A stretch of DNA of 64,000 nucleotides, from the NCBI GenBank assembly GCA_029204225.1, contig CM055102.1:42433229-42497228 (forward strand), given 5' to 3'. Shown here one piece after another: positions 11,498 to 35,685 of the stretch. Made by a program: the position numbers and the translations under genes. This stretch comes from Diphasiastrum complanatum (taxonomy: Eukaryota > Streptophyta > Lycopodiopsida > Lycopodiales > Lycopodiaceae). Under the pieces are notes generated by a model that had not been told where the DNA came from, did not search any database, and worked only from the letters and a program-made list of their open reading frames with translations. The first letter of the stretch is position 1, and each line of letters begins with the position of its first letter.

Positions 11498-11611
11498 TCA
11501 GTTTTGATTTTTAACAGCAAAATAATCTTCCAATGACTCTGTGGTAATCACATTCCCTGAGAAGGTTGAAGCTCCAAAAGGTGCAACATGAAGTAAATGA
11601 GGAATGAATCG
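11498..11611 (-). CDS. PEX22: PEX22 exon 8 (residues 239-275 and stop)
   Basis: The acceptor is GTATATGCAG. It encodes RFIPHLLHVAPF and onward to SLEDYFAVKNQN and then TGA (11500-11498). It matches the 'RFIKYQLHV...SIEQFF' C-terminus of plant PEX22. Confidence 0.92.
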   Translation of the reverse strand, partial: RFIPHLLHVAPFGASTFSGNVITTESLEDYFAVKNQN

Positions 11612-14600
11612 CTGCATATACAAAGATTCAATCAGTACACATACATAGTGAAGTGAAGGTCATCACAATAAGCTTCACTTTTTTTTGTTGATTGCAAGTG
11701 TTTTGAATCTTTTACTCGTGAAACTGCAGCAACTTTCCAATTATTGCACACATGCATTAAGAGGAAAATGGCCTCCCCTCATAGTTTCAGAGTCAACATT
11801 TAGGGTTCATGGGTTTATGAGTCTATGGCTAAGGGTCTTGGGTGGGGACCAAGAATACAAGCAGAATGCAGTGTCCAGAATAGATTGATATTATTGACAA
11901 GAAGAAAGCGTCATCACTACCGAACAAAATTGCCATAAAGAAATACAGATCAGAATATGTAGCCAGAATAATACCAGCCAACAGCAGAAACAATTATGCT
12001 GACACCATATTTGACCTTCCAATCGAATGAATAAATGAAAATAAGAAATGTACATTGAAATATTCAGCAGAGTCTATGAGTAAATTAAAGATGTTTGGAA
12101 GAGGTTCCAAACATTTGTCAGACGTCCATGTTTAAACTGCGTTCCAAAAGATGCGTTTCTTAGAACTTTAGATTGGAAAAACAGCTACTTTCGATACTAA
12201 TGTATCATGGTGTATAATTACAATCTTCATATGTAAGGCTTCTTTTCAAGTTCATGTCATCCAATATTTGAGATTTACTTTCCGCTTTGAAAGGCTAGAT
12301 GGACTAAAATCAACCCTATTTTTATCATATGCACTAGAAACATTTCACATTTGGATACTTGGACATTTGGTTGCAACCTTAGAAGCCCGTTCCGACCAAA
12401 ATGGGTCGGAACGTTCCGTTCCGTCCGTTCCGTACGTTCCGGAACATACTGGGTTGGAACGTTTTCTTAAAGAAAAAGAACACCAGATCAAAATGCCACC
12501 TGCTGTGATCTTCAGAACTGGCGATCTTCCGTCTTGATAATATATTGAGGGACGCTACAGATCAGAAATCGATTTGAAATTGAGGGCTTCTAAGTAAGAA
12601 ACTATCAAATCGATTTCTGATCAGTAAGCATTTGCTTTGTTTTGGACAATCCTGAGTCAATCGGTCGTTTGAATTTTGAGGCCCGGCCCAGGAGTTTCTG
12701 TATAATCCAAATGCAATCGAACCAATGCATCAGCCTAAATCAGCTAGATATTTGAAACGGGTTTGTTCCTTAATCTGATTATCTGATTACTACGTTTTTC
12801 CGCAGAATCCCAGCAAAATCCGTATATTGACACCTGCCTCGATGGCTCAGTCTTAAACTGTGATGACACACACTGATTGCCCGTATTTAGTTGCCCGTTG
12901 TCTATCAACTCTCAGGATATGGTTTTTTTTTTCTTTGTAAAAAAACGTATTTTTTTTATTTTCTTTCGGGAGTCCTGTTCCGGAACGGACCATCAAAAAT
13001 AAAAATAAAAAAATACGTTTTTTATACAAAGGATTTTTACACTTGGCAAAAAAGAAAGCATGAAAAAGCCTTGTATGACGTTAGTGGTGCGCTATTTGAA
13101 TTGTGTGATAATTCTGTTATCTTAGCACATCAGTGTTCCCTGCTCACTGTTGTGAAATGGTGAAGTCGCGGGCCAGCAGGGTGTTTCATCAATAGATTTC
13201 GTGGAAAACCAGCGTATTATGTTTTTTTTTACATTGTAAATAAACTCGTTCCGACCCAGTACGTTCCGGAACGGTCAGAACGGAACGTTCCGACCCATTT
13301 TGGTCGGAACGGGCTTCTAAGGTTGCAACTATGGTTACAAGTACAAATGCATACAACTTAAAGAAATTGCATATAGAAAACGATATGCAACAGAAAAAAG
13401 AGTTTTTGATGGTGAATAATTTGTGCACCAAGAAACAAGCTATTGAAATGTTATTCTCTGCCAAGTCCAGCTTGAATTGTTCTGATCCTTAATCAAATAA
13501 AGTTTATCCTTAGAAGTCCCGTGAGGTGGAAACCATGCTTAACAATTGGATCATATCCAATAAACCCTTACTGATATTCCTTCCCATATCAGCCTTGCCA
13601 TTTCGTGACAATACACACCACCCTTTTCCACCCTTCCCCATCTATTACTTCCCACGTCAGCATCTTAGACAGGGAAATTGGTATTTCTCTTTGACACCTT
13701 GCAGCCTCACTCAGTGGTCAGCTTCCAACTATTCATTTAAGCAGGTATGCTTGGAAGCATTTTTGTACTCAGACGTTCAACTTTTCTACCTGCTTAAATG
13801 AATAGTAACATGGTAACATGGGCTACCATTGTAACGCATGGGCTACCTTTACAATGCACTTTCGACAAGCTATGATTGACCCCACCCACTTGGCATATCA
13901 ATTAGCAAGATATCTTCTGGACATTCAGCCAAACAGGTACAAAAATTGATTATGGTGAGCATTTTGTTGAACTGTCTTATCTATTTCCTAAACTACCTGT
14001 TGATGAAGTCATTTCTAGTATATTGAAGTTCTGAAAGGAGCACTTTGTTATGATGTCACCTCTTTCCATCCTAGTTCATTAGTAAAGGCTATGGAACTTG
14101 CTAGTACTCTTCAGCAAAAAATAACCCAATCAGATATAATCTCGACCCCATTTTCCTTCTAATAAGTCATGTCCTCCTACACACACTAATACCTCCTTTG
14201 TTTCATAGTTTGTTCCTCATTCAATCACTCATCCATGCCCCATTGTTCTTCATCATTGGTCCAACGAAAAGATGCACAAAATCCGCACCAAGAATCTTTG
14301 TTTTAAGTGTTAGAGTCCAGATCATTTTTCCAGACATTGCAAACAAACTCCTACACCTCCAGCTAGTGTTCATTACCATTCTGTTGATGAACTTGATGAG
14401 CCTGAGATTTAACTTAATGAGGCTCCTACTCTTCTAGATTTTCCTCCCATCTTGCGTATGTTCATTCTTTACCTCCTCTTTGAGCGATGAGATGTCAATC
14501 ACCGTATTGATTTACTTCTTAGATCTGCACTCATCTCCTACACTCCTTACCATATGACTCGTCAGGAGGAAATGGAGATTTGTACACAAATTACTTAAAG

Positions 14601-17600
14601 AAACTTTTACAAACATTTCATTATGATCTTCATTATCGCTCTAGGAAAAGTAATGAGGGTGTAGATGCTCTCTCCCGTCTACCAACCTATATACAAGCTC
14701 TTACTAGTATTTGTCCTGCTTGATTTGATGGCCTTGCTAATGCTTATCCTACATGTCCTGAATTTCGATCTATAGGCCTCCTTCAAGCATGACTCATTAG
14801 GTATACTCTTATCAATCACTGCCTTTATCATTATCAAGCTCTTTGCATTTAGATATTCAACCCCAAATCCTTTCTGATGCACATTTTTCCTGCACAGGAG
14901 GGGATCATTATGGATTTTAAGAATCCAACCTTATTTTGGCAAGCCAGAGTCATAAATGAATCTTGCCAAGCTTATCCATTCATCTCAGTTTTGTGCTGGT
15001 AATAAATATTCTCGTTCCAAACCTGGTGGCCTTCTCCAGACTTGGGTCCATTACTCATCACCATTGAACAAATAGTTCGATGAATTTTATCCTCGGACTT
15101 CCTCACATACAACATGGACATGATACTTATTTGATTGTTCTCAATCGATTTTCAAAACAAGCTCATTCTTTAATCATTCATGCTACCATTAATATTAAGT
15201 AGTGTGACCAGATTCTTGTGTTTAAAATACTTTGTTTGCATGGTCTTCCTCGTTCCATTCTCACTAATCAAGACACAAGATTTACTTCCACTTTTTGGAC
15301 TAACTAATGTGTATCTTAGACATTAAGGTATTAGCAAGGACAACTTATTGTTCGTCTGTACATGATCAATTTGAAGTTTTGAATCGAATTCTTGAGACTT
15401 GAATATTATTTGTGCAAATTTGTCTCCCACTGTCAAAAACTAGAATCAACATTTGTGCTTTGCAAAATACAATTACAATAGTTCATATAGCAATAATACT
15501 GGTGTTTCACCATTCTTGCTACTCTCTGACATTTCCAAGTATTCCTTGACCTCCTGATGATACGACTGTTAATTTTGTCTTATCTTATTAATTCTCATGT
15601 GCACGCACACGAACATGTTACAGCATATTCAATAGCAATATAAGGCGGCTACTGACAGACATCGACCTTATCTTGAATTTCATACAGGCCAAGATGTTTT
15701 TCTTCATTTAAGCTTTGCTATGCATAGGTTTGTTCAATGTCAATCTCCTTGCAAATCTCTACATAGTCACTCTTGCCCTCTTCTATGTGCTACAATCACC
15801 TTTCACGCATCATGGCCTTCACATAGACGCAACAAACTTATGACAAGAGTTTGATGATGGAGACATGGCACTTTTTTAATGTCATGTCGGCTATGCCACA
15901 AGGGTAAGCTATGAAGACTCAAAAAGGAATTTCGCAAGTTCTTGTGTTGAGGGACAACATTTTTGCCAAGAAGAAAATTTCTATTCAACAAGTCAAAGCC
16001 ACCATGAGCCAACTGTCATAACTTATTTTAACAAATAGACTATGGGAAAAAGTAGCAGCAAATCTACAAAACCTTGTAGTGCCTATTGCCAAAACACCTA
16101 AGTTTTTGTAGAAAACAGGGAAAAAAATGATTCAAGGAAGCTGACACTTGACTTACCGCTAGTTGCTCAACCCTTTCTAATGAAGAATCTACATGCCAAT
16201 CAGGCTCTAGTTGCCGAACAAAGGATGCACCGCCTGTTTCTATGCTGTAGAAAAGCACCTACAAAGGCGATGGCAAAAACATTAAGATCTCTTCCATGCA
16301 TAGTTTCAAGATCATGCAACAAAAGCAACTATTTTTTAGCATCCACTAACTTCTGATGTTCCCTCATTATAGAAAGGCAAATGAAAGTGCAAAAATTTGG
16401 CAGACTTGATTAACCACATGCATGTGGAACCATACTGATATAAAACCAAATCGCAACATCTCACTACTTAGCAAACCAACCCACACAAAAAAAAAGTATG
16501 ACAAACTCCAGATTGACTTACCTTTTCCACAAGGTGAAGGAAACCACAAGAAGAGCATTTACTTGCTTGCAACAAGTAAAAGGCTAAAGGAATTCTAGTT
16601 ATTTGGCCAAGAAACTATAAAAAGAATACCAACACCACAAAATCAACAAAGACTCTTTGAACTAAGTTTGCTTTCATTTGGACTACATAAATATGAAACA
16701 AAAGAATTGGACATGAGCTTTCAAAATTTTAATACTTGCTACCAGATTAGAATTGAGTTAAGGATGATGTGTAAAACAAAACGTTGGAATGAGAACCATA
16801 ATTATATCTATTAGAAACTCACAGCAGACAAAAAATGTACCATAAATGAGTAATATTAAGAATTTTACATAAAAATTTGAAATTCTAGCCTCTAGTAAGA
16901 CAAAGTTCATATCACTACGAACCAATATAAAAATTTCGAAATGTGTTGCGACCATTAAAGCTCATGAAGGCCATAGGTGACCTCAAAAAATTTCAATTGC
17001 AATGCTACACGATGCGTAACAACCTACAATACACTCTAGCTAGAACAAGGAATCTTGGTAGTTGGAAGTGCATTTTTTATCAGAAGTACTTTTTAGATGC
17101 TTCAAGCATCCTAAAACTTCTTGGGCCATGTTCTAATCAAAACTTCGTCTAAAGTTGATACATCGGCATTAAGTCTATATAGTTTTTGGCATAACAAAGG
17201 ATACATGTAATCTTCAACTACGGAGTCCACCCACAAACTAGGTGTGGGTGACATGCACAAACATACATCCACATTAGGTTCATACATGTGTACAAAGGCC
17301 AGTGTACGGAATTTCTATCACTTCTGAAGAGGTGAAGAGAAGACTCTGTCATGATCAAGGCTAGCAATAAGAGGAAGTAACCATATATGTCAAAAATATG
17401 CAACATGAACTGAAAGAACTGCAATCTAGTTCGATCGACGCTTCCGTCCGCCTTGTATTTGACCTTGAATACCATTTGCAATCAATTACATTTTGGCTAG
17501 TCGGCAATTCGACAATAGACCATGTCTGGTTCTTGATTAGAGAGGCGTACTCTCTATCCATTGCTTCTCTCTAGAGATCAGAGTCTGACTGGTTGAGTGC

Positions 17601-20137
17601 TTCTTCGACTGTTGTTGATTCTCAAATGAGATAGCAGGCAGACTCATCAATATACCTTGGTGTGCGCACTCTTGTCAATCTTCTTGGAGGTGGTGTAGGC
17701 TGATAATCTTGTCTTTGGTTTTGTTGCTCCTGACTAGCAACATCTTCGAACTCTCTGTCGATAAGTTGATCGCCTGTCGGCGCATTCAGACTTGCGACTC
17801 GAATTGTCGTGTCGAAGGCAAGGGTAGTTGATAGTTCGCTTGGAACTTTGCCCTTGCTCTCCAGGTCGATATATTGATCCTCGATAGAAACGACGTCTCT
17901 GCTGAAGAATATCTTTGCAGTGTCGAGATCATATAGCTTGTAAGCTTTGTCAGAAGAAGCATAACCAATAAAGACGAATTTGATGTTGTTGGATTCCAGC
18001 TTCTTTCTGGCAGCTTTCGGGATCTGCGCATAGGCGATAACTCCGATTGCTTCCTTGCGTTGTTCTTGGCCTTCAAAATTCTGCAATCTTGAATCTCGTG
18101 ATTGGTACGCTTGAAGTACTTACAGAACATCCTTTTCTTCGATTGTGGATTCGAAGATTGTTCTTGGTTTTGAGTCAGCTTCTTATTCAAATTGATTTGT
18201 TTGGAGCCTTTCTTCTTCTGCCTTATCGAGCTTATGTTTGCATATAGAGCATGTGAGTCCGTATTCAAAGAGCTGGAAGATCCATTTCTTCGACTCTCTT
18301 CCAGCAACAACATAGAAATAACTCTAGATAGAGTTAGATCTGAGTGTGTCGTGATGATCATCACCCAGTTTTCATACGTAGATGGTAGGCTTGATAGTTG
18401 TGTCATAATTTTCTCCTGAGGTGTAACTTCGAGGTTTTGTCTCTCACATCGTAAAGGTGCTCAAGATATCCCAAACTTCCTTCGATGTTTGAGCTTCAAA
18501 TACATGGCTGATTTGCATATCTGATATATTAAGAATGATCGGCGCAAAAGCTTTAAAATCCTTCAGGTTCCATTTGGAGATGAATGTGTCGTCTAAGTCG
18601 CTTGACATCGATACTTAAGACAACATCCCACAACTCCTTAGCCATTACCACTGTTTTCATTGTAAATTTCCATAAGTGGTAGTTGGATCCATCAAGCTTG
18701 TCTACGATGAGACCAGCTTTGCTTTGAGAATCCATATGGAACTATTGTTTGCTGAGAATCTGATTTGTTAGCGATTTAAGAATGAAAAATGGAATCTATC
18801 TATATTATCAAAACAAGAAAGCTATTATTCTACTAGTCTGGTAGAATCATGTTTGAAAGAAAGAAACTCTGATATTGTGCAAGCTTTCATAAGTGGAAGC
18901 TTCAAAGCCTTATAGGCTTTGATACCGTGTTGGTATCAGTTAATCAATGAATGAAGCTCTAATACCATGTTGGGGAAATATGTGGAGTGGGGAGTGCAAA
19001 AAGGTTCAATGGAGAAGGACCTATGTTCGAATTATTGGGCTCTGATAAGTGACTCCTTTCCCTCAATGCATGAACTACACGTACCAAATTCAGAAAATGT
19101 ATTGCGACAAGGGTCCCAACTGATTTTACTTGATCCTCACTTTGAAATTGTCAGAATTGATTCAGTTGATTGCGTAGACAAACACAAACTCATTAACGTT
19201 GGTTGTGGAAACGCATAACATTCATACTAACATAGCAACTGAACGCAATAAGACGATTGAATTGAGTTCAGGATGTAGCATGTACATAATCAGCCGAATG
19301 ACGAGCACAATGCAATTGCAGTAGTAATTGCGTGCTCAAAGTTGTCTCTCTTACTCACTCTCTCTTGAACAACTTAAGGCAGACGGAAGCTGCTCTAGAT
19401 CAATCTCTTATTGATAAATAAGATTGACAATTAGCTAGACGGTTGTTGCTTATGAGATATATATATACAGAAATCGCTCTGGGATTCAATTTACAAGGCA
19501 TTGGATCAATTGTTGTATAACGGCGCATGGCAGATCATGATAGAGTTTGATGCACTTGCTTGAAGTGCCTCGTCAGATCGAGAAGTGGTTGACAATGTAC
19601 TTAGTCTTCATGTCAAAAGTACATGTCCAAACACTAGGTGGTTGAATTTGTATTGTGCCGTCAAATGTCGTAGTCATACCTGGCCGATAGTCGTAGGTAC
19701 TCGTAAAAAGCTCATAAGAAGACTTCGTAAGAAGTCGCAAGTGGCTAGAAATAGATTGATAGACTTCGTCCGACGGTTCGATGTCATGTCGATTGTTCGA
19801 TGATCGTCCGGTTGTTCGGTGATCTGCTGAATGCTCGACAACTGAATGAATCTAGACTAAAAATTGGATTTAGTAAGAGAGAGAGAAAGGAATAGAAATT
19901 CAACACTATTATGGCAAAAACAAGTGCTTCTTTAGTGTTTAAATTGCAATGTAGATTTAATTAATCAACAATCCACCTATTGTCATTATCCATACTACAT
20001 AGTACATACATTGATGGTCAAGACTCAAGTGATTATGGACTTCTAATTCGAACTCAAAAGAATGTTCATAACTAGAACATAATTAGTCATCCATATTAGA
20101 ACACTTTGATGTTCTAATGTTCATTTATAGCCTCACT

Positions 20138-20216
<79 letters not shown>

Positions 20217-23200
20217 GGCATGAGAACCTACACAAAACATAACTCTTATTCTAGTATCCTTGGTTACACCAGTTCATCAATCTTCATCTATTCTTGCTAT
20301 TGCTCTAGATACTATGGATGTAGTTTCTATGGTACAACATCAATCTTAATCTATTCTTGCTATTGTTCTAGATACTATGGATGTAGTCTATATGGTACAA
20401 CTGCATATCAAACTCAACCAGACGAGGTTGCTTTAGTTGAGGTTCGTGGTTTGTGTGATGAGGCACATGTCTATCAAGTTGTGCTTTTTCTGCAATTTTG
20501 TTAGAGATTCGTGTTCTAGTAGTTGTTAGCATACATACAAATGTCCTATCAATTCTACAACTATCCTAGATCATTATGCTACATCTTGTTGATACAATGA
20601 CATTCATTATGATTTGGGTCATCACAATACTTTATGTGGTGTTATTCGTATTGCTCCGTCTTCTATGACGGTGGAGCTATTGTTTGAGGATGGCAATTCC
20701 CATTTATGAGCCTTGTGGATCCCTTGGAATACCAATAGATCACCATACCCATTTGTTCATTGCACCACTATTTGGCATATTTGATTTAGATGATTAGCTC
20801 GGGATGTACTTACAACGTGTTCAACTTGTTTGAGGATGACAATTCCCATTTATGAGCCTTGTGGATCCCTTGGAATACAAATAGATTACCATACCCATTT
20901 GTTCATTGCGCTTCTCTTTGACATATTTGATCTAGACGACTAGCTCGGGATGTAGTTACAACATGTTCAAATATTGGTGCTATGGTTCTTATAGATTGCT
21001 TGGGACATTGGTACATCTTTATATCTATTGCTACTTGGCATGCTTGGTTGATGCAAATAGCTTGGGATGCTTATCCTTATTTCGTGCAACGGACGCATGG
21101 TGGTCGTTGTTCTATAATACCTCATTCAATATGGTTCCTCTGGACTATACCTTTTGAGTCCTTTGTTGTCGCTACTTCTAGGTATTCATGCTCCTTTTAG
21201 ATAGCCAGCATTCACACATTGTTGCTCGAAAGTTAGATGGGATCTGACTCTTGCTCTCATTCCAGAGAAGAGTTCAGACCTGATCACTGGCTGTCTATTG
21301 GACCTCTTTGCCGGTTGTAGAATTGTTGGAGCTGGATCACTGTCTACAGTCCGCTGACAGATCTGAACAGATCACCGTCTATTGTACCTGATCGCTACAG
21401 TAAGACCTAATTGCTGACCTATTTGCAGGTCTGTGAACCTGATTGCTGCCTGAAACTGGCTGGATTGCTGGCTGCAGACCTATTTACTGTCTGCTGGAGG
21501 TCGCTGCCTGACATCTGAATTGCTATCTGTTTGTTGGAAGAGGAGAGATCAGAATCTGTTCGCTGGCAAGAGTGCTGACCTCCAGATCTGTTCGCTGAAA
21601 AAACAGGTTACTATGAAACAAATCAGGAAATTGTTGAAGACAGGTCGTTACTGATCAGAATACTATTGGTAGATCGCTGCAGGTTGCCATTCGCTGTTGG
21701 AAATAATTGGTACACATGCAAGGAAGTATGCACATGCGAAGATTGCTAGGAAATCACTGGTTTCAACCTATTGAGTGCAACAGGATCAGTGATCAGATTG
21801 CTGACTTTGTGTAAAAAGATCACGGAGGTTTAGAAGCTTGATGCATGCTGAAGGAGTTCTCAGAAGTCAGGACCAGCATTATGACTAGGAGTTGTCTTGT
21901 AATCAGGGTGCAAGGTGGAGAAAGGATCCACAAGAGTGATGAGTGTTACAAGGACAAAAAGATTGCTACAAGGACAGCAACGTCTATTATGAAAGCACAG
22001 TACAGATCAGCGGATTGTCATTTGTAAAGTTGTTGCAGGAGGACATTGAAAGGTTGTTGACACTACATGTAAGTTGGTTCATGCAACTGCAAGGCAGTGG
22101 AAGGGTCAACTCACAAAAAAAGGAAAACTACATGAAACAACAAACGGTGAGAGAGATGGCAGGGGAAGAAAGTCAATGATCATGGTGTCACTGAAGCTGC
22201 AAAAGCGGCTACCAACCAACATACTGAAGGAAGGTCAACTTTATAAGTTTTAAGATTGGACAAGGTTTTGTAGAGGGGAATTGACAAAGATGCAAGCTTT
22301 GAAAGGGAGTTGCATGAGAATCATAGACTATGGGTCTATATAAGTTAATCGATATTCAAGAGGATGCTTCATAGATTCACAATTTCTTATCATGGTGGCA
22401 AATGATAAGTTCTTTGTTACAAGTGACAGGTGTGACAAGCTGTGAGGTTTTCATTCTATGTTGTATCGCTTTGGTTTTTATCCAAGTCATATTAGCTTGG
22501 TTATGTCGTATGAACTAGTATCACTTGAGATTTATGATTAATTGAAGTGATGTTTGTTGTAGTTGTTAAGTGATTCCTTCATACCATCCAAGTCATAGTT
22601 GATCGTTCATGTGGTGGTACCAAGTGTTCTACTAAGAAGATATGTTTTGAGTTGAAGAAAAGTTCTCTCTTCAAGTTCTTAAATCTATTCAAGTACATGT
22701 TTTGTCATGTGATAGATTCTGTTCTTTCCAATAAATTTTGAAAGCTAAGGTTGTTAATTAGTCGTTGAAAATCAAGAATACAGGTGGTTGTTTAGTCTCA
22801 AGAAAAACAACAGGGTTCATTTCTATGAATCGACAGGTTATTGATCAGCCTTAGACAATCAATATGAAGTCTTCTTAAGTGAAGCAGGATGGACATACAC
22901 CAGTTTGGGAAGTTTGCATATGACACAATTAAGGACAAATTGATGTCATAATGAGATGCTTTCTAGGTTGGAAAGTTGTTTGGAGCAAGTGACTCCATGT
23001 GTGAGATACGTGCAGGAGATTCCATGGAGAAGATAGTGTCAAGTGCTTTGTGTGAGAAAATATTTGAGAAGTATCAGTTATTTTGCGTGAGGAAATATTG
23101 TACGTTTCATCTTTTTATTAAAAGCAATTGCCTAAATAATGTCCCTATATATGGTCAAAGCACCAATTTACAACAAAAATTGTGATCCAAATCAGGCACT

Positions 23201-26200
23201 AGAATCTCAACCTTGAGTCTAACTAAATTCTAACTTGACTTTACTAAATATAGGTGAAGGCCTCTTTTAGCACGCAGGTATGGCCCAATAATCCTAATTA
23301 ATCCTATGACAACAACAATGTGAACATTAACTCCAACACTCCCCCTTCATGTTTACACTGTCAAGAACTATGCATAACACAAGTATGCATGTGTATCCTC
23401 CATGATGACGCCCATACAACGAAGATCCTCAACTCTGATGTAGAATATCATAAGTAGGAAATAGATTTACAAATATCAACACCTCATACATCAACACCCA
23501 CGTTAGAAACCTATACTTCATATGTAGTTGGCTCCACTTGTGTTGTCAATTCCTTGAATTGAATCCATTTCAAATCTCCTGGTACTCTCATAAGTTACCG
23601 CTTGTAATGGACTTGGACTTAGCTGAACTACTCCCCCTGGATAGAGACTTCATGTTTGCATTCCTGTCCTCAACCACTCTCTAACAATGATACAAATAGA
23701 ATACCGTCCATGAACCCAAGTATAAAAACTTATCATTTGCCACCATGATAAGAAACTGTGAATCAATGAAGCATCCTCTTGAATATCGATTTACCTATAT
23801 AGACTCATAGTCTATACGTCTCATGCAACTCCCTTTTAGAGCTTGCACCTTTGTTGATTAAAACCTTGTCAATCTTAAAACTTCTAAAGTTGACCTTCCC
23901 TTAGTATGCTGGTTGGTAGCTGCTTTTGTAGCTTTAGCGACACCATGATCACTAATTGTCTTCCCCTTCCATCTCCCTCGTGGTCTCGTGTTTCACGTAG
24001 TTTTCCTTTTCCTGTGAGTTGTCCCTTCCACTTTGCCTTGCAGTTGCATGAACCAGCTTCCATGTACTTTCAATGACCTATCAATGTTCTCCTGCCATGT
24101 TTTTTAACAGTAGAAACCAAACTATAGCGCCTAATCTGATATGATCACTCTTGTGGGTGCTTTCTCCACCTTGCATCCTGATTGCAAACTACTTCAGCAT
24201 GCATCAAGGTTCTAAACCTCAGTGATCTGCTACTACAAGACATAGCAATTGCTTCCCAGCAATCTGCACATGTACATGCTTCCTTGCATGTGTACCAATT
24301 ACTTCCAACAGTGATTGGCAATCTGCAGCGATCTACTAATATCAATCTGATTGTGGCTAAACCTTGTTAATTTTCCTGTGCCTACTAAGCACCTCCAGAT
24401 GTCCAAGATTTGTTGCCTACGATCTGCTCCACAGATCAGATTCAGCTCCTGGGATCCTGTAAGTGTGATGAACTCCTACGCAATTGCGCTCCACTTCACC
24501 GATCTAGTGCGTTGATGTCTTCTTCATGTTGATCATAGCTTGGTGAAGTCCGCTGACGTCTTGTTGATAGTTGATTCTTTGTTTCTTTAAACACAATCTG
24601 AACCTCTTGATTGGTAGTGGAGGATAGATCTAAAAAGGTACCAGCCTTCTCATAAGCAGAGCCTTCTCTGCTTTCAAACCTTCATGTATCAACAAAACTT
24701 TTCAAATGGATTGCAACACTTCTACAAGGAAAATTACTGAAGGCAGATTGCTGGAGGATAGCCTATGAATCTGCAGGATGAGACATTGAAAATACATCAA
24801 CTTTTCAGATTACAGATAGCAGAAAGATTGATTCAGATTTGTGGAATATAAAACAGTGACCTGGAGTCTTGTTCTCTCGAATCTTGAACCATGCTCCAAT
24901 ACCAGGTTTTCTCTCGACTTGAACCATGCTCCAATACCATGTTAGAAAACCGACTTGCTCATACAAGAAGACAAGATTCCTATTGTGATGAAACAATAGC
25001 TAAACACATGAGAGAGAACACAAGTGATGAGAAACTCCAACTATGTCCCATTGCAAATGAGCTAGGGCGCACTACATATAGGCTTTGGTCTATGCTGAAA
25101 GCGAAAAAGCAAAAGCAATCTAAAAGCAATTGCCTAATTCATGTCCCTATATATGGTAAAAGCACCAACACCTATTTATAGCAAAATTGTGCTCCAAATC
25201 AGGCACTAGAATCTTGAACTTGAGTCTAACTAAATTCTAACTTGACTTTACTGAATAAAGATTAAGGCACCTAGAATTAGCATGCAGGCATGTCCCAATA
25301 ATCCTAATTAATCCTACATGACAACATAGGGGTAACAATGTGAACATTAACTCTAACCAAAAGCAAGACTTTGGAAAGTCATATGAAGCAAATTCATATG
25401 AAAAGGATCGGCATACGAAGGAATTCTACATCATCATACGGAAGAAGTTCTACATCGAGTAACAAAGACATTAAAATCAGAGTTCATCGTGGATTCTACA
25501 TCAGAATTGAGGATCTTCATTACATGGGCATCATGGAGGATATGCATGCATACTTATGCTATGCATAGTTGTTGTCATTAACAATGTAAACATTAAGGGG
25601 GAGTGTTAGAGTTAATGTGGTCATCTAGAGTTAATTAGGATTATTGGGCCATGCCTGTGTAATAATTCTAGGGACCTTTACGTATATTTAATAAAGTCAA
25701 GTTAGAATTTAGTTAGACTCCAATTCGAGATTCTAGTGCGAGCACATTTTGCTATAGATAGGTGTTGGTGCTTTTACCATACATAGACACATTAATTAGG
25801 TAATTGCTTTTGCTTTTCGACATAGACCAGAGTCTATAAGTCTAGCTCATTTGTAATGGGACATAGTTGGAGTTTCTCATCACTTGTGTTCTGTCTGTCT
25901 CATGTGTTTGGCTATTGTTTCATCACAAAAGGAATCTTATCTTGGGTTACTTGTATGATCAAGTCAGTTTTCTAACAAGATCCACAAGTCTCCACATCTT
26001 GTTCTTCATAATGAACAATATTCCTCATCCATAACTTTTCTCCATCTCTCCTCTTTTCTCAACTTCTTTGAAAGTCGATGGATCCCTAGTCTCTGGTATA
26101 GCAACCATAAACGTAAAGTGCACATCTTCATGTTCATTTTGTTTCCCAAACCTTGTTGATCTCCTAGCTCCCTATATATTTGACTCACCTTCTATGATTC

Positions 26201-27699: not shown

Positions 27700-27782
<83 letters not shown>

Positions 27783-28150
27783 CATGCCATTGTCTCTCTC
27801 CCTCTCTATCCTACACTCAGCCATCCATACATCATTTTCCTACGCTTCAAAGATCAGCCCACTCACTTCTACACTCGGCCTACTACCATTTTGGAACTAC
27901 TCTTAAGCTCTCATAGTTGTAAACTTTCACATTGGGTCAAGAAACCCAAAACTCGTTGCATGCATGCATCACCCCCTTCCAAAGCTTTGCATGTCTTCTT
28001 TACCTTCTTCAAAACATTGCATGAACCTATTCTCAACTCCATTATTCTTGCATCTCACTCTTCTTTAAGTTGAAGAAAGGTTGTCTTTTGCCTCCTAGAT
28101 TTTGTATCCATTGCAAGGCCTGCCAAACCTCAAGATATATTTGAAAACAC

Positions 28151-28238
<88 letters not shown>

Positions 28239-31200
28239 GCTTTGCCAATGATCTTGCATAACAAAGATTTTCCTGCAAGGGGTAGTCCCCATCTTGACCC
28301 CTCATCACTTCTTTGTGTGAATACTTGATGTGGGATGTTTGGTACAATATTTTCAAAATCATTTATGTATTCGATGTCAATTAAAATTCAATCATTATTC
28401 CTAAAAATTGAGTTTGGTTGGACTAGATGTATAAATTACTTCACCCCAAAAATATATTAGGAAGATTCTTGTTCTTCAACATGATCCAAGCACACTCCAC
28501 GATTGATTGGTTTTTCCTTTCTGCAACTCTATTTTGTTGAGGCATATCTATACCTGCCAATTGTCTCTTTCCATTGTTTGCTTTTCCACTTGTGCCTTGA
28601 ACCAGGCTTTTAAAAGCGTCACTTTTATTCTTTAGACGATACACCCATGTCTTCCTAGAATGATCATCCACACAAACTATAAAATAACTTGCCCCTCCAA
28701 ATGCTTGTGTCTTCATTGGACCACACAAATTACTATGAACAAGCTCAAAAACATCTTTTGCCCTCAAAAGTATTAGAAGAAAATTTTTGCCATCGAAGCT
28801 TACCCAAGACGCATCCCTCATTTAGTCTATCATGTGTTATGAATTGAGAAAGCCCTATAATCATGTTATATTTCCTCACAATTTTCAAACTGTCAAAGTT
28901 CAAATGTCCAAACCTTTCACGCCATAACTTACTTTCCATGACAATGTCTGCAACTCCCGCCTGATGACTCATTGCTGGAGCTTGAAGTTTGTACAACCTT
29001 CCTACGAGAAATCCATCTTGCACATCATTATTTTGCTTCTTGATAAGACCATGTTCTTCATCAAACTGCACCACCGTGAGTTGCTTTGCAACAGCTGAAA
29101 CTGAAAGTGAGTTCTTACATAAAGAACATCTTCAATATCTCCTATTCTTCCTGAATGTAACTGAACTTGTACTTTTCCAACACCTTTATTGTTGCAAGTA
29201 TAGTTATCACCTAACTTGACATTCATACCATCATCCACCTGTGGATAACCACTCCCGAAGAAAAGTCGTATGTTTAGATGCCCCTGAATCTACATGCCAA
29301 GAGGCTTAGTTTCATTGAATGATGTTAATGCTGAAAATGACTCACATTGATCAAGTATCAAATCGTTTATCTTTTTATAATTTTCTATTTTTTCTTCTTC
29401 TTCAATTGCTTCTTTTTACACTCAAAAGCAACATGACCAGCTTACCATAGAAATGACAAATACTATTTTGCTTTGCATTTGTCTTCATTCCATCCTCTTG
29501 CTGGTTTTGTTGCTTTTGCTTTCTGTGTCCCTAATCGTGTAGTCTCAACGACCTATCAGGGTCTTCCTGCAGCAACTTTATCAACAACTCCGAATGTGAT
29601 CAATAGCAATAGATATTAGCCCCCATGATCTGATCTGAATCAGCAGCTATGATCCTCTTGCATGCAAATTCTAGCTCTCGGGGATGGCAACTTGTTGTCC
29701 AGTGTAAAGACCCCAAAAAATCTTGCTGTCCTTGCAGTGATTTTCAGACCTTCAACGACCAACTATGTAGACACAGCAAGCTATTCCAGCTGCAATCTGC
29801 AAAAAAGCGGACAGCAGCAACGATCCTACCACATGAAGCGAATTCCAACAGCAATAGTGATTCTGAAACTTCTTACTTTCAGCAATCTGAAGCAGTGATT
29901 TCCTACAGTAGCGATCTCCCTATCCTGTAGCGATCTTCAACAGCATAAGTAAAAGCTATGCAGTAGCACCCGTCCAGTAGCGACCCAGCAATTTTAAAGA
30001 TTCTCAATTTCAAAAATTCTTCTCAAATCATCTCTCACATAGACTCCACTATCACAAGGACTCCACCAACCTCTAATACCATGTTGGACTAATCTTATTC
30101 AAACTCACAAAACTTGAAAAAGCAAGAGACAAAAGCGATTGTATGGTTCTCTTAAAATTATCAGCCACCCATGCTCACAATCGCTCCATTCTTCAAAATG
30201 CTATTATGTCTCCCTTCAGTATCAAGGGGGGATGGTGAGCAATCAATATAGTCGAATGTTCACAATAAATCAATCCTGTTCGTGTTGAAGAGCATGCTCT
30301 GACCCAACATCCCAGGCAGGTGTGGCCTCATCCAAAAGCACACTGGACCTTTGAGGATTTGCCCTGCTAATTGTAGTCTGCTGCGGATTTGCACCACCTT
30401 CACTCGCATCAATAATCATCTGGTCGTGTGAATTTGCAGCTACAGCAGCTGCTTGATACTCATATTCTGTTCCTTACTCAATGTTTGATCATACGGTGCC
30501 ATAGATAAAAAGAGGTTCTATGCAACTTGCTTAGGAATCAAAATTCATGATCTCTTTGCTGCTAAAACAAGAATCTTGAGAACTTCCTTCCGATTCCTGA
30601 AATATTTTATTGCAAAACTCCCAAACAGTCCAGCTATGCTGTTTCACTCCCTGAGGACATACCTTGAACAGATTTTAGCAAAAAAGAAGCTCTTTCCGTA
30701 CATACGAAACAACACACCCATTAGAAAATGCTTCTATGTTTGAAAGGCACAAGGGTAAACTTAGCAAATAATGAATACTGATGCCAAAGAGCAAAGCCAG
30801 TAAAAAAAAAGTTCCTTTTATCCTAGAGATATTATGAGAAATACATACCATAGCTTCATTTGTTCAAATTTGAAAAAAAAATACAACAGCATGAATGTAG
30901 TCATTGAAAATATTACAAATCAAGTAACCATCTGCAACAAGCAATATTTTTATGTTACTTGACATTGAAAACTTTCAAATGGATAACTTACCTTGTTTCG
31001 GTTAAGGGCCCCCAGTGTGAATGCTCCAACAGCATCAAGTGCAGCCAGAACAGCTGCCTGTAAAGCAGCAGAAGCAAAAAGATTATAAGACAATTGAAGG
31101 TGAAATCATCAAGTTGTGCATGAAGATAATCTATAATTTTTCAGCAGTAGAAATGGTCAAATGGAAACACCATTGGAGTATATGGTTTATATACGATCAC

Positions 31201-32322
31201 CCAGTCCCCTTCTGAAGGGTGCATACAAAAAAACGCAAGCTCATATGCATAGATTTAGAATAGTACCTCACTTTCATCATCCAGTACTTTGGCAAAGAGA
31301 TAAGTGTCACAAACCCGGGTCAGCTCCAATAGCACCTCAACAACAGAAGGTCTCACAACAACATGCTTCTGTCAACCCAATACATTCATGCTTGAATGTT
31401 TGTCACAATATAATTTTGATGTTGGGAATATAGCCAAATTCAAAATGCAGAAAACAGGAAACACCACCTACCTGGAGTTCTTCAGCAGTTGACTCCTGAA
31501 GCACTACACCAAGGAGTTCACAAGTCATCTGCAACCACCACAATCTTAACTTGCAAATTTTCCAAAACTGTGATTGACATGCATTTGCAAATAATACTTT
31601 GCAGAGTCCTCGATGCTTACAATCTTCAACTTTGTCTCATCCCCCTAAATCTAAACCCTAAACCCAAATATTACATACCTTTCTACCACCCAGAAGTTGC
31701 CGCCTGACTAATTGAGCTACCGGTACCTGTGTCAGAAAATGGATAGGTATTCAGTCATTTGCAGAATCTTAACTTCCAAAGAACACAGAACAATAAAAGT
31801 TCAAAAATTATCACTCAACGCTCCAAGTGTGCAAAAGGATAAAAGTACTAAGATAAACATCCTTAAATATCCACTATGGCATAAGGTTACTTGATATAGC
31901 ATTAAAAAACAACAATGTTGCAACCGTATTTCCTGTGTGGCAGTGACCCCTTACGAGTGTTTTAAGTATGCCAAACTTTGCTGTAGGCATACGTGTCACG
32001 GACATACCATTCAACAAAAATACAGAGGGTCTATAAAAAATGATTCTCCAAAAAAAAAAACTGAGAGAGAGAGAGAGAGAGTATACATATTTATGTCTTT
32101 AAGATACCCAAAGGCATGTAAGACTGCTAAGTACATTTCAAGTGTGCACAAAAAATCCCAGGGGTGTAAGCATCTCCTGTGTTTGAAGATAGATACTCAT
32201 TATCCTACATAAAAATTGTCACAACATACTACCGAGTCGTGCAAGTTGTGTAGTGCACAACCAACAACTAATACTAGGAGATTCGTGTTGGCAGTGATCC
32301 TCCATTGGCAGCTGCAGGGGGG

Positions 32323-32365
<43 letters not shown>

Positions 32366-32406
32366 AAAAGAGAGAGAAAAGCTCTATAAACAAGAAAGCC
32401 TTCTTG

Positions 32407-32444
<38 letters not shown>

Positions 32445-34894
32445 ATGTTTTTTTTTTGGGGGGGGGGGTACGGATGGAGATGCAGAAGAACGAAAGAAAC
32501 AGGGTAGAAAAGTCAACACAAAATTTTCTTCATTTACTTAGAAGTCAGTGTAGAACTCAAAGAAAAGATCGTTGAATCAACAACCAGCAATACGCTCCAC
32601 AAAATTCAAGATAGGAAAAGGTACTTGTCACAATAACTATGAACTACACAGAAAAGATATAACGAAAGCTGAACCTGAGTAGATGCGGATGGTTCTTGAC
32701 TTAAGCCACCACGATGAATGGGTTGTGTGATACCCTTTGCAACAGCTGTTGATGTGGCAGTGGCATCACCTTCAACAGCTGTAGAGCTTGATGATGAACT
32801 TTCTGGTTTCGGAACTCTTTTACGACGATGGTCTTGCAATTTCAGATACTGCCAAGTGCAAAGCAGAGCAATTGCCAAACCCGCAACAGCTCCAAATGAG
32901 CTGGCATTCTGCAGAAACATTTATTACTCAAACATGTCAAACAATTAGAGACTACAAGCAACAAAAATTTTGCTCTGAAAGACATACATGTCCCATAGTG
33001 TATCGCAATCATGAGCAAGTTGCTCAAGAATTGGGAAATTTTTACAGAAGCTTGTTTCAGTTAACCTGGTCTAAATTAAACATTTTTGCAGGGATTCTTA
33101 GCAAATGCTACAGGACCTCGCTGATGGTCACCAAGGACTGAAGAATGACATTTAATGTCTAGTAGCAGAGCAAGCAAACAATGAAGAGAGTGACAACACG
33201 GAAAATGTCCCCGGACAGAAGACTCAGAGCCATGGGGCAAAAATGAGTTTCCTTCAAGTGGTAGCTGGCTTAGAGACGAGCTGAGATTAACAAGTCAGAA
33301 CAAACAAAAAGAGAGAGTGAAGAAAAAGAACATTCATGCAACCTCAAAACTTGTGAGTACTATGGAAAGCAAAGGTGAGCATATAAATCAGATCTTGACA
33401 TGCTCTTTGAAGATATTATGCTACTCAGTTATCTAGGGGTTCTTCAATCCTAATGAATTGAAAAACAAGGGCATAATACCAGACCTGCTTAGTTGGTTCA
33501 AACTTCAAAGATATCGAGGCCAAAAACAGAGTTACGAATAACCACTCTCTTCTCCGAAAAAACAATTGCTTAAAAATTTTCTTATGACTGAGCAATAATG
33601 AAACAGAGGTAAAATTGAGTTGCAAAAGATCAAAAGGATGGCTTATTGCATTTCCAAGAGAGGAGAGGTGGTCATTATCAACAAACAACACAATTATTCA
33701 ATATAGCTATCGTTGGACCTTAGAATTTGCGTATGGGATAACAATGGTATTACAGAAGAAAATTCATATGACTCCAATTCTCAATAAAGTTGATCTCATT
33801 GTTTCACAGAGATGTGGGAACATAAGCTAAAATGTTACCTGCAATCTATAACTTTTGAAATCTAAAATCAATATCGAATACTAAAGATTCCAGGGGAGGT
33901 CACAAGTACAGGGGTATGGTGAGAAGACAACACTATGAAGTCATCACTGTTAAAGCCCTTTGCTATTACCCCAACAAAGGGATCAATTCCGAAGAACTAA
34001 TTTGGAATTTGGAACAAGAGATCTTAAAATTGTCTTTGATAGGATTTGTCATTCTTATTGGAGATTTGATGCACATAATTCTGATTTACGAGCATATGGG
34101 AACAAGCAACCGGTTGTGGATCGATGGACAAGGTCCTCTAAGACATTGCCACAGTAATAAGGAGAGCTAGGAAATTATTAGCATTGCTTCAATCTTCTCA
34201 TATTTATTGGAGTAAACTACTCAAAAAATTAGAAGGTTTACATATGAAATTGTTGAAAAAAGTCATTTATTATTTGATATGTCACGAATCAATCATTAGA
34301 AATGTGTTGTTGTTTTACCTCTAACTCCACACCTTTAACCTCTCCACACTAGACTGCATCTCTTGGTCCTCTATAGTAATGGACATTAGAGGTGTGTCAT
34401 CCAAGCTTTATCTGATAAAGACGTTACTTTCATTCATAATGTCAAAAAATGATTCCATTTCAAATCGTATAAACGAGAAGGTTCAAATTATATTGAGACT
34501 ATGCACTTGGTAGAAGAGAACTTGCAAGTACGTTAACAAGTCATTGAAAACCTAGAACAGTTAAAGATGCTAGTCTTGACTCTTAACTAAGTGACATCGT
34601 CCTCCAATAAGTTTCATGCTGACCTTCTTTCCACTCCTAGAAGTGGAAAGTTTGACTTCAATCACCTGCACATATGAGGACACAGACGAAAAAAAAAACA
34701 GATGGACCCTATGATGCACAAGTACATCAAAACAAGTGCTCACTGTGTCATCAAACAAAACCTAAAGAGTGGAATATTTTGAAACAAACCTTATGATTGT
34801 CCACAAATGCTATGAGGTGAGATAGCTTGATTGCGAGCGTTGCGCTAAACCCCTTGATTAGCTGAACCAGCTCATCTGCTAGAGATTGTGCCAT
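11498..34894 (-). CDS. PEX22: PEX22, peroxisome biogenesis protein 22 (complete gene, 8 exons)
   Basis: PEX22 is the peroxisomal membrane protein that anchors and activates the E2 enzyme PEX4, which ubiquitinates the import receptor PEX5 so it can be recycled. I reconstructed it exon by exon on the minus strand: 34894-34790, 32908-32675, 31726-31679, 31528-31472, 31368-31267, 31057-30992, 16258-16157 and 11611-11498. Every junction is GT-AG and every exon is a multiple of three, so all seven introns are phase 0. The product has 275 residues, close to the roughly 280 of Arabidopsis PEX22. It has one membrane segment at about residues 40-57 (GAVAGLAIALLCTW), a basic then Ser-rich linker (62-80), and a C-terminal PEX4-binding domain from about 114. 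The most diagnostic stretch is SFVRQLEPDWHVD (216-228). Intron lengths are 1881, 948, 150, 103, 209, 14733 and 4545 bp. No lesion is visible, so it is probably functional. Confidence 0.93.
12378..13321. mobile_element. 944-bp terminal-inverted-repeat element (hAT-like, non-autonomous)
   Basis: The ends are long inverted repeats of about 85 bp: CTTAGAAGCCCGTTCCG and onward from 12378, and its complement ending CGGGCTTCTAAG at 13321. GTTGCAAC flanks both ends (12370-12377 and 13322-13329). This is an 8-bp direct repeat, the hAT target-duplication length, although the octamer is palindromic and so could also be the outer TIR. The repeats are dense in GGAACG/CGTTCC. Inside are two further hairpins (12560-12622 and 12933-13031) and no transposase. 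It lies in PEX22 intron 7. Confidence 0.75.
12560..12622. repeat. perfect 18-bp inverted repeat inside the TIR element
   Basis: GATCAGAAATCGATTTGA at 12560-12577 is exactly complemented at 12605-12622, with a 27-bp loop. Confidence 0.9.
13729..13805. repeat. perfect 19-bp inverted repeat
   Basis: CTATTCATTTAAGCAGGTA at 13729-13747 is exactly complemented at 13787-13805. A smaller hairpin (CTTCCAA...TTGGAAG) overlaps the left arm. It could be the terminus of a small foldback element in PEX22 intron 7. Confidence 0.85.
13880..15800 (+). pseudogene. Ty3/gypsy gag-pol relic
   Basis: In order on the plus strand: a gag segment (LKGALCYDVTSFHPSSL-like, about 14032-14110, with frame breaks); a CCHC knuckle CFKC*SPDHFSRHC (about 14298-14340, one in-frame stop); an RT scrap SALISYTPYHMT (about 14524-14560); the RNase H end HYDLHYRSRKSNEGVDALSR (about 14617-14680); an integrase zinc-binding region (about 14880-15060); and an integrase core with MDFILGLPHTQHGHDTYLIV and LTNQDTRFTSTFW (about 15075-15300). 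Most of reverse transcriptase is missing and stops are frequent. It sits in PEX22 intron 7, opposite to the gene. Confidence 0.82.
16157..16258 (-). CDS. PEX22: PEX22 exon 7 (residues 205-238)
   Basis: A 34-codon exon with acceptor CTTTGTAG and donor GCG|GTAAGT. It contains FVRQLEPDWHVDSS, the most conserved stretch of plant PEX22. It lies between the two longest introns of the gene. Confidence 0.95.
16259..17217. other. PEX22 intron 6, part without recognisable element
   Basis: Non-coding intron sequence immediately after the exon 7 acceptor side. No element ends or domains were seen. Confidence 0.4.
17440..18735 (-). pseudogene. internally deleted Ty1/copia element (gag joined to integrase tail and RT start)
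   Basis: On the minus strand the gag N-terminus reads KLDGSNYHLWKFTMK (18700-18656) and gag continues to about 18080. A Cys-His knuckle remnant is near 18125. Gag then runs directly into the integrase C-terminal part (AYAQIPKAARKKLES, FVFIGYASSDKAYKLYDL, IFFSRDV) at 18050-17622 and the first RT residues (SLIKNQTWSIVELP, WVFKVKYKADGSVDR-like) to about 17440. Protease, the integrase core and most of RT/RNase H are gone. It lies in PEX22 intron 6 in the same orientation as the gene. Confidence 0.85.
18956..18967 (-). other. primer-binding site (tRNA-Met type)
   Basis: The minus strand reads TGGTATTAGAGC directly next to the LTR start, as in plant copia elements primed by initiator tRNA-Met. A second, imperfect PBS-like motif lies at about 18918-18932. 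Confidence 0.75.
18968..19905 (-). repeat. 5' LTR (938 bp) of the deleted copia element
   Basis: The plus-strand ends are TGTTGGGG (18968) and TTCAACA (19905), giving the TG...CA and TGTTG/CAACA inverted ends of an LTR. It abuts the primer-binding site. A TATATATATA run at about 19459-19471 could serve as its promoter on the minus strand. The next five bases, CTATT (19906-19910), would be one half of the target duplication. The 3' LTR has been lost. Confidence 0.75.
20141..20213. repeat. (CT)n microsatellite
   Basis: An uninterrupted CT run of 73 bases in PEX22 intron 6; it reads (GA)n in the direction of the transcript. Confidence 0.98.
20285..20402. repeat. tandem duplication, period 63 bp
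   Basis: A 54-base phrase around CTATTCTTGCTATTG(C/T)TCTAG occurs at 20288 and 20351 with a few differences. The period is divisible by three, so the plus frame reads a 21-residue repeat (YSCYCSRYYGCS twice). I recognise no protein. Confidence 0.85.
20681..20972. repeat. tandem duplication, period 146 bp
   Basis: The block starting TGTTTGAGGATG at 20681 is repeated at 20827. It includes the shared phrase GAGCCTTGTGGATCCCTTGG and the end GACTAGCTCGGGATGT. Copies differ at scattered positions. No domain is recognised. Confidence 0.88.
21236..23118 (+). mobile_element. outer non-autonomous LTR element, internal region (left part)
   Basis: This non-coding sequence is the plus-oriented copy of an element whose other copy lies inverted at 23119-25357. 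Shared parts include TGGTACACATGCAAGGAAG (21709; inverted near 24300) and the ATCGATATTCAAGAGGATGC to CTTATCATGGTGGCAAATGATAAG block (22350-22415; inverted at 23728-23795). It resumes at 25358 after the inserted element and ends in its own LTR at 25604. No gag or pol is present. The left part is dense in degenerate GATCGCTG/GATTGCTG motifs. The 5' LTR was not found and 21236 is an approximate limit. Confidence 0.6.
23119..23340 (-). repeat. 3' LTR of the inner element, truncated
   Basis: It aligns with 25140-25357 (TAAAAGCAATTGCCTAA and onward to GAACATTAACT(C)CAACA) and is followed by the tract CTCCCCCTTC (23341-23350), a polypurine tract on the minus strand. Confidence 0.8.
24928..24939 (-). 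other. primer-binding site of the inner element
   Basis: The minus strand reads TGGTATTGGAGC immediately after the LTR, similar to the tRNA-Met PBS TGGTATCAGAGC. The 30 bases containing it are imperfectly duplicated just to the left (24887-24905). Confidence 0.7.
24940..25357 (-). repeat. 5' LTR of the inner element (418 bp)
   Basis: It starts TGTTAGAAAAC at 24940 beside the PBS and ends in CTCTAAC at 25357. It is related in inverted orientation to the LTR at 25604-25977 (shared GTGTTGGTGCTTTTACCAT-type and CAAGTTAGAATTTAGTTAGA-type blocks). Confidence 0.82.
25604..25977 (+). repeat. 3' LTR of the outer element (374 bp)
   Basis: It starts TGTTAGAG at 25604 right after the polypurine tract AAGGGGGAG (25595-25603) and ends TTCTAACA at 25977. 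It is the plus-oriented relative of the LTR at 24940-25357. Confidence 0.85.
25985..26600 (-). pseudogene. Ty1/copia fragment (integrase C-terminus and RT start)
   Basis: The minus strand reads GYDGDMGF and KGRKVIISRDVGFDEIRYQE-like sequence (about 26535-26450), then the RT N-terminal motif DPSTFKEVEK, MDEEYCSL, KNKMWRLV (26090-25985). Several frameshifts and stops separate them. It lies in PEX22 intron 6. Confidence 0.75.
26601..27703. other. PEX22 intron 6, unassigned part
   Basis: No domain is recognised. A short plus-strand open stretch at about 26967-27020 (VLGKVLEEQEQEKLAKFKR) is too short to call. GTGCAGGT occurs three times (near 26814, 26885 and 26962), which hints at a short diverged repeat. 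Confidence 0.3.
27704..27779. repeat. (CT)n microsatellite
   Basis: An uninterrupted CT run of about 76 bases in PEX22 intron 6. Confidence 0.98.
28153..28234. repeat. compound (TG)n(AG)n microsatellite
   Basis: About 49 bases of TG run straight into about 33 bases of AG. Confidence 0.98.
28441..29460 (-). pseudogene. Ty1/copia fragment (zinc knuckle, protease tail, integrase)
   Basis: On the minus strand: a knuckle CHFYGK(frameshift)GHVAFECKKK (about 29457-29408) whose second Cys is Tyr; the protease tail with VQVQLHSGRIGDIEDVLYV (about 29182-29126); the GAG-pre-integrase motif LWRERFGHLNFDSLKI (about 28930-28880); and the integrase core with HSNLCGPM, YFIVCVDDHSRKTWVY and NRVAERKNQSIVE (28760-28470). 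The first integrase aspartate is Asn (HSNLCGP). An internal deletion removes the second catalytic Asp region. In PEX22 intron 6. Confidence 0.87.
30082..30309 (-). repeat. candidate 5' LTR (228 bp) of the copia fragment
   Basis: It begins TGTTGGAC (30082) and ends CCCAACA (30309). The minus strand has a PBS-like TGGTATTAGAGG directly beside it (30080-30069). No partner LTR was identified. Confidence 0.5.
30282..30461 (-). other. short open coding-like stretch, unrecognised
   Basis: About 60 codons on the minus strand read EYQAAAVAANSHDQMIIDAS, later SSVLLDEATPAWDVGSEH, then stop. Composition and lack of stops look coding, and an AG lies just upstream (GGAACAG). It is 0.5 kb downstream of PEX22 exon 6 and overlaps the candidate LTR end. 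It may be a captured gene fragment or a cryptic exon; it has no counterpart in PEX22. Confidence 0.3.
30992..31057 (-). CDS. PEX22: PEX22 exon 6 (residues 183-204)
   Basis: A 22-codon exon with acceptor CTTTACAG and donor CAAG|GTAAGT, encoding AAVLAALDAVGAFTLGALNR and NK. It matches 'AKVLQALENAGVFTSGGL' of plant PEX22. It is followed by the 14.7-kb intron 6. Confidence 0.92.
31267..31368 (-). CDS. PEX22: PEX22 exon 5 (residues 149-182)
   Basis: A 34-codon exon with acceptor GGTTGACAG and donor TGAG|GTACTA. It includes VRPSVVEVLLELT and the conserved VLDDESE end. Confidence 0.93.
31472..31528 (-). CDS. PEX22: PEX22 exon 4 (residues 130-148)
   Basis: A 19-codon exon with acceptor GGTTGCAG and donor CCAG|GTAGGT, encoding MTCELLGVVLQESTAEELQ. 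It matches 'VTCRLLGVILEETSPEELQ' of plant PEX22. Confidence 0.93.
31679..31726 (-). CDS. PEX22: PEX22 exon 3 (residues 114-129)
   Basis: A 16-codon exon with acceptor CTGACACAG and donor AAAG|GTATGT, encoding VPVAQLVRRQLLGGRK. It aligns with the 'LGQIVRQKLSEGRK' segment of plant PEX22, which begins the soluble PEX4-binding domain. Confidence 0.9.
32063..32081. repeat. short (GA)n microsatellite
   Basis: Nineteen bases of alternating GA following an A run, in PEX22 intron 2. Confidence 0.9.
32325..32443. repeat. (GA)n and (TG)n microsatellites
   Basis: GA runs from about 32325 to 32363 after a G run, and TG from about 32407 to 32443, followed by T and G runs. Both lie in PEX22 intron 2. Confidence 0.97.
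32675..32908 (-). CDS. PEX22: PEX22 exon 2 (residues 36-113), membrane anchor
   Basis: The acceptor is TTTCTGCAG and the donor CAG|GTTCAG. It encodes the single membrane span FGAVAGLAIALLCTWQYL followed by DHRRKRVPKP and a Ser/Thr/Ala-rich linker. This matches the 'GAIAGLAIA...TW' anchor of plant PEX22. Confidence 0.9.
32909..34789. other. PEX22 intron 1
   Basis: A GT-AG intron of 1881 bp. It holds a plus-strand open stretch at 33960-34157 that I do not recognise and no clear element. Confidence 0.6.
34790..34894 (-). CDS. PEX22: PEX22 exon 1 (residues 1-35)
   Basis: It starts ATG at 34894-34892 and encodes MAQSLADELVQLIKGF and onward to HK, then donor GTTTGT. This start is preferred because it gives a short amphipathic N-terminus (ELVQLIKGFSA) like the EEIVRLIKRLSA-type start of plant PEX22. 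I checked no in-frame upstream ATG exhaustively. Confidence 0.85.
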
Positions 34895-35129: not shown

Positions 35130-35685
35130 CAAAAAAAAAAAATTGAAGATCTAGATCATAATACAAAACAAAAATAAAGATAAAAATACGAAAAGAAGCG
35201 ACTATACGTATCCCTTTGAATGACTGATATGACTCACCACAGAGGATAGTATGAAAGGAAAACAGTAAGCGAGGGTGGATTGGCAGAATGAAAGATATAG
35301 CAGGAAGAAGAAGGAATCGGCTGGATTAAAGTCGATGCTGCCGCTGATAATTGAATGCGTGGCTCCAGCGTGCTGGTAGATGCGTCAGAAGACAACGAGA
35401 AGAGACCAGAGCCCTTGGAGCAATGCCGCTGACCGGAGGAGCAACGCTGAACAAAAAAGAAGCAAAAAAGAGAAACGTGAGTCTCCGAATGACAAGTTTA
35501 AAGCCAAAAGTGAAGATCGTCGTCTTCTCAGGGCAATAGAGAGGCTTAGTGCGCTCGATCGGATGTCGGCCACTTGTCAGGATCCCATTCGGCTACCACT
35601 TAGATTGCTGCTGCAAGAAACGTGGCAAAATCTGAACGTTCCGTGAAATAATGCTTGGTCTGTCAGGATGCAGTACAGAGAAATG

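Follow-up and report, generated by a model that had tools for sequence, protein, structure and literature searches.

A predicted PEX22 gene spread over 23.4 kb, with two long repeat-bearing introns, in Diphasiastrum complanatum

The locus considered here raises the question of whether eight short exons, scattered over 23.4 kb of a 64-kb stretch of Diphasiastrum complanatum DNA (hereafter the window), constitute a single working gene for the peroxisomal protein PEX22 or the remains of one. An earlier, sequence-only reading had assembled these exons by eye and proposed an uninterrupted product of 275 residues. We joined the eight minus-strand exons by script, from 34894 down to 11498 (Table 1), and obtained 828 nt including the stop, coding for exactly 275 residues; the proposed exons are thus correct to the base, and the positions of the two junctions across the longest gaps (30992/16258 and 16157/11611) are exact. 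The coding share, put at about 3.5% in that reading, computes to 3.54% of 23,397 nt. An in-frame TAA lies immediately 5' of the ATG, and the window contains no Ns. Pieces matching the exons in length were joined at random, drawn both from the whole span between exons 1 and 8 (inner exons included) and from the introns alone; as 0 of 20,000 such joins remained stop-free in either draw, an open frame of this length is not due to chance.

Introns 1 to 5 measure 1881, 948, 150, 103 and 209 nt, followed by the two long introns listed in Table 1, and all seven have GT-AG borders and are in phase 0. The sequence-only reading had called these junctions perfect, which holds for the terminal dinucleotides (7/7) but not for the donors as a whole: compared with the donor consensus MAG/GTRAGT, the donors of introns 1 to 7 match at 7, 5, 8, 8, 5, 9 and 7 of 9 positions, respectively. 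Introns 2 and 5, with 5/9 each, thus have weak donors; for the two long introns, 6 and 7, the match is 9/9 and 7/9.

Table 1. Coordinates of the predicted PEX22 gene and associated features (positions in the window unless another stretch is named).
Feature	Position	Strand	Remarks
Probable 5' leader, non-coding	35263-35357	-	95 bp; 96% identical; fused to exon 2 on C12 and C987
Exon 1	34894-34790	-	105 nt; aa 1-35; start codon; same length in C17 copy
Exon 2	32908-32675	-	234 nt; aa 36-113; hydrophobic stretch (presumed anchor) and linker; same length in C17 copy
Exon 3	31726-31679	-	48 nt; aa 114-129; same length in C17 copy
Exon 4	31528-31472	-	57 nt; aa 130-148; same length in C17 copy
Exon 5	31368-31267	-	102 nt; aa 149-182; same length in C17 copy
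Exon 6	31057-30992	-	66 nt; aa 183-204; same length in C17 copy
Intron 6	30991-16259	-	14,733 bp
Exon 7	16258-16157	-	102 nt; aa 205-238; most of the PEX4-facing segment; FVRQLEPDWH
Intron 7	16156-11612	-	4,545 bp
High-copy repeat in intron 7	12356-13343	.	988 bp; 77-nt terminal inverted arms, 90% complementary
Exon 8	11611-11498	-	114 nt including stop TGA; aa 239-275
C12 fragment	5055-5378 of stretch L012
C987 fragment	5008-5331 of stretch L013

The identity of the product rests on two lines of evidence. The Pfam profile HAD_Pex22 (PF22978) matches residues 119-267 over profile positions 2-133 of 135, with an E-value of 5.6e-31 and 107.6 bits against a cut-off of 27. In a search of solved structures, chain B of 6XOD, the Arabidopsis 'Peroxisome biogenesis protein 22', was recovered with an E-value of 4.3e-49, the two remaining rows being at chance level (0.32 and 2.6). 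The alignment of residues 115-270 to 6XOD chain B is gapless, with 86 of 156 positions identical (55%), and runs through every junction from that between exons 3 and 4 to that between exons 7 and 8, both longest introns included. Because the profile match lies so far above its cut-off and the structural alignment needs no gap, the product can be assigned to PEX22, as the sequence-only reading had proposed.

Exon by exon, identity to Arabidopsis PEX22 from exon 3 to exon 8 amounts to 7/15, 12/19, 21/34, 11/22, 22/34 and 13/32, the low value for exon 8 being a point of difference between the two proteins. According to PMC8922245, residues 212-233 of Arabidopsis PEX22 interact with the ubiquitin-conjugating enzyme PEX4. 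They correspond to residues 201-222 of the window protein, a segment that straddles the junction of exons 6 and 7, with 14/22 identical, the FVRQLE motif among them; the whole FVRQLEPDWH stretch is identical in the two proteins. They also share the HAD/Rossmann-like PEX4-binding domain and, as far as the description in PMC8922245 goes, an N-terminal hydrophobic segment followed by a linker, and they are of comparable length (275 versus 283 residues). The presumed anchor (residues 39-57) has a Kyte-Doolittle mean of 1.49 over its 19 residues; a segment of the folded domain scores slightly higher, at 1.61, which leaves the presumed anchor in second place for hydrophobicity. Yeast Pex22 (2Y9M, 5NKZ) is described in the same source as having the same role and fold class, with little sequence identity to the Arabidopsis protein; it also relates that a yeast strain deleted for pex22 is rescued by Arabidopsis PEX4 and PEX22 supplied jointly.

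We then searched the whole assembly (1,744,706,496 bases in 5,176 contigs) for other copies. The 275-residue protein gave 12 matches, comprising six of the eight window exons (exons 3 and 4 being missed) and a further six rows spread over C17, C3113, C12 and C987, none of which showed exon 7 or 8. Apparent stops in three of the matches (window exon 5, window exon 7 and C17 exon 2) belong to intron sequence just 5' of the exons. When exons 7 and 8 (71 residues) were searched against the whole assembly with E-values up to 10, matches were found in the window only. Likewise, the window has the single occurrence in the assembly of the codons for RQLEPDWH when at most one mismatch is tolerated (two occurrences for the reversed control pattern). 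The HAD_Pex22 profile gave a single match above its cut-off, window exon 7, along with three weak rows that contain stops (E-values from 3.6 to 5.85); as it missed the other exons of the window gene, it is weak evidence of absence. These searches work exon by exon and score the best candidates only, such that a strongly diverged exon may escape them. A better copy elsewhere was rejected, the other places having yielded no exon 7 or 8 in these searches, and the window looks like the holder of the only complete PEX22 copy in the assembled genome. Since exons 7 and 8 were found in the window only, the better, compact PEX22 locus that the sequence-only reading had named as the finding that would count against it was looked for and not found in this assembly.

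The most informative of the other places is a second, diverged PEX22-like copy on the minus strand at C17:11990838-11969234 (within C17:11962000-11991999), which is itself spread over 21.6 kb. It possesses exons 1 to 6 of 105, 234, 48, 57, 102 and 66 nt, identical in length to those of the window, in phase 0 and with GT-AG borders, which independently confirms the borders drawn by eye for these six exons. C3113 carries a near-identical partner of this copy (97.7% over 11.4 kb), of which only exon 1 was found. Over exons 1 to 6 (612 nt), the window and C17 copies differ with dN 0.202 and dS 1.153, giving a dN/dS of 0.175 (bootstrap 2.5-97.5%: 0.107-0.267); this ratio is an average over both copies since the duplication, in which the branch under constraint is not separable, and it indicates that the protein was constrained for much of that time. 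The two copies share the short introns 3 to 5 and the large spread, but differ in which introns are long: in the C17 copy these are introns 1 (15.8 kb) and 2 (4.7 kb) rather than 6 and 7.

They seem to differ further in the C-terminal end. We found no convincing exon 7 or 8 within 67 kb downstream of the C17 copy, the best rows (E 0.67 and 0.059) being devoid of the conserved motif, and the frame read on past its exon 6 ends at a stop after six codons. The likeliest account is that the C17 copy recently lost its C-terminal end and is on its way to becoming a pseudogene. It is unlikely that it has been kept as a shortened PEX22-like membrane protein serving some other purpose, such as competing with or regulating the window PEX22. 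This truncated but open paralogue is the least ordinary observation made here.

The span of the window gene is dominated by introns 6 and 7, which account for 19.3 of its 23.4 kb. Intron 6 contains dispersed repeats as well as copia fragments at about 17.6-18.5 kb and 28.4-29.1 kb; Pfam recognizes SH3-like and gag_pre-integrase domains in it above their cut-offs, with gag and integrase matches below theirs. A comparison with the remaining window sequence and with other stretches of the assembly (145 kb in total) yielded matches to 24% of intron 6, 5% of intron 7, 0.1% of intron 1 and 0% of intron 2, these shares being lower bounds on the repeat content. The element in intron 7 (Table 1) belongs to a high-copy repeat with at least 122 matches across the assembly, the element itself included, 40 of 2,259 candidates having been scored; the best other copies among those scored are 91-93% identical over about 610 bases. 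Sequence of the type TTCCGACC, as in this element, was also seen by eye on C12, near position 6500 of stretch L012. Intron 6 further displays inverted-repeat structures at 21654-24351 and 25122-25811, with arms 84-91% complementary, parts of which occur also on C17 and C12.

As repeats were matched over part of introns 6 and 7, transposable elements are the likely cause of the growth of these introns, demonstrated for that matched part of their length, with introns 3 to 5 having stayed short. The window introns are far longer than the Arabidopsis mean of 153 bp reported in PMC8626473 for an ortholog set rather than for PEX22 itself. Among angiosperms, some large genomes are rich in long genes, which are no surprise there. 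As reported in PMC8626473, 876 of the 2,184 orthologues selected are longer than 20 kb in Chloranthus spicatus, against none in Arabidopsis and two in rice; LTR elements are apparently the main contributor to the long introns of that species, and long genes and introns are prevalent in Chloranthales and magnoliids. The mean intron length given for Magnolia biondii is about 2.8 kb (PMC7917104).

We consider it very probable that the window locus is a working nuclear plant PEX22 gene, as predicted from its sequence. Like the sequence-only reading, we favor a live gene over a pseudogene because the frame is open, the junctions are intact, the C17 copy preserves the same borders at a dN/dS of 0.175, and exons 7 and 8 are found nowhere else. 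A pseudogene in the usual sense was rejected, no lesion having been found in a locus with an open frame and intact splice borders whose last two exons were found nowhere else in the assembly. As exons 7 and 8 have no paralogue, selection on them is judged from their similarity to Arabidopsis only (22/34 and 13/32). A subtler form of death would leave the exons clean while intron 6 or 7, with its transposons, is no longer spliced and no full-length protein is made. The 19.3 kb of these introns, with their copia debris and high-copy repeat, and the two weak donors elsewhere in the gene (introns 2 and 5) would fit such a recent demise. Yet the 828 nt are free of frameshifts and stops, it is the long introns whose donors match at 9/9 and 7/9, and no other complete PEX22 was found in the assembly. 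Moreover, in Chloranthus, expression was reported to fall only above 40 kb of intron, such that long introns are compatible with expression (PMC8626473). We thus regard a recently dead gene as quite improbable.

Alternatively, C17 or some unassembled region might harbor the functional PEX22, leaving the window copy as a spare. The six clean exons of the C17 copy speak for this, as does an assembly in 5,176 contigs that may be incomplete; but the stop six codons past C17 exon 6 and the lack of a convincing exon 7 or 8, both in the 67 kb downstream of that copy and in the rest of the assembly, make it very unlikely. That the eight exons are a patchwork rather than one gene might be suspected from their assembly without tools across gaps of 14.7 and 4.5 kb. 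This is barely credible, being already contradicted by the gapless alignment to 6XOD over the junctions from exons 3 and 4 to exons 7 and 8, and by the identical architecture of exons 1 to 6 on C17. The predicted working gene hence remains our preferred reading.

The remaining matches bear on the 5' end of this gene. C12 (at 18.6125 Mb) and C987 carry an intron-less fragment, 99.8% identical between the two and thus counted as one, in which window bases 35357-35263 are joined straight to exon 2. The exon 2 match starts at the first base of the exon and stops one base before its last (233/234). Of the 15 differences from window exon 2, with C17 as the reference, 11 are changes in the fragment and three in the window, with a third base in C17 at the remaining one. 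The fusion suggests, with moderate support, that 35357-35263 is transcribed as a leader and that exon 2 has real borders at either end; a GTG/GTGAGT donor was also seen by eye near 35240; as this leader DNA is joined to exon 2 in the fragment, the PEX22 transcript probably starts upstream of 34894, where the sequence-only reading had ended the gene.

We rejected as too simple the view that the C12 fragment is a plain processed copy: exon 1 is missing, the window offers no GT donor on the leader side of the joint, and exon 2 is followed by unrelated sequence, leading into a many-copy repeat about 27 bp beyond the fragment. For this repeat, with 40 of 925 candidates scored, at least 74 matching pieces were found, the first two being those on C12 and C987. 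A mobile element may have picked up this copy from a transcript that was itself aberrant.

We scanned 38 of the 39 window ORFs of at least 110 residues with Pfam, omitting one antisense over exon 2; 11 have domains above the cut-off, all from retrotransposons except for a DUF4219 that shares its ORF with an adjacent copia gag. The non-transposon names below the cut-off are NUP210 Ig-like, MJ1010-like and Rab11-FIP3. Scans for tRNAs and with Rfam returned nothing in the window. The ORF scan agrees with the earlier statement that PEX22 is the one gene in the window whose function can be stated, bearing in mind that a gene of small exons would escape an ORF scan. Other structures seen in the window include two direct copies of about 1 kb at 5015-7046, spaced by about 1,090 bases and 90-94% identical in the reported pieces, where the three ORFs scanned gave no Pfam match; two oppositely oriented copia-type stretches at 38826-40322 and 57952-59925, 79-85% complementary in the reported pieces; and a 365-residue open frame on the minus strand at 47152-48249, with no Pfam match.

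In functional terms, the window PEX22 is an ordinary kind of gene, plant PEX22, a membrane anchor that serves in building peroxisomes, and its role with PEX4 being already established (PMC8922245). The spliceosome would remove introns 6 and 7 as ordinary GT-AG introns, and the PEX22 domain of the resulting protein would hold PEX4 on the peroxisome, where the enzyme so held would ubiquitinate membrane-located proteins, such as the receptor PEX5. The value of the locus lies in its clean gene model, one that might readily be broken up by automatic annotation, as 14.7 kb separate exon 6 from exon 7 and a further 4.5 kb separate exon 7 from exon 8. It is these two far-off exons that carry most of the PEX4-facing part of the protein. 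Further, the genome offers two old copies with the same exon frame and different introns grown long, a natural comparison in which the C17 copy seems to have lost the functional end that the window gene retains.
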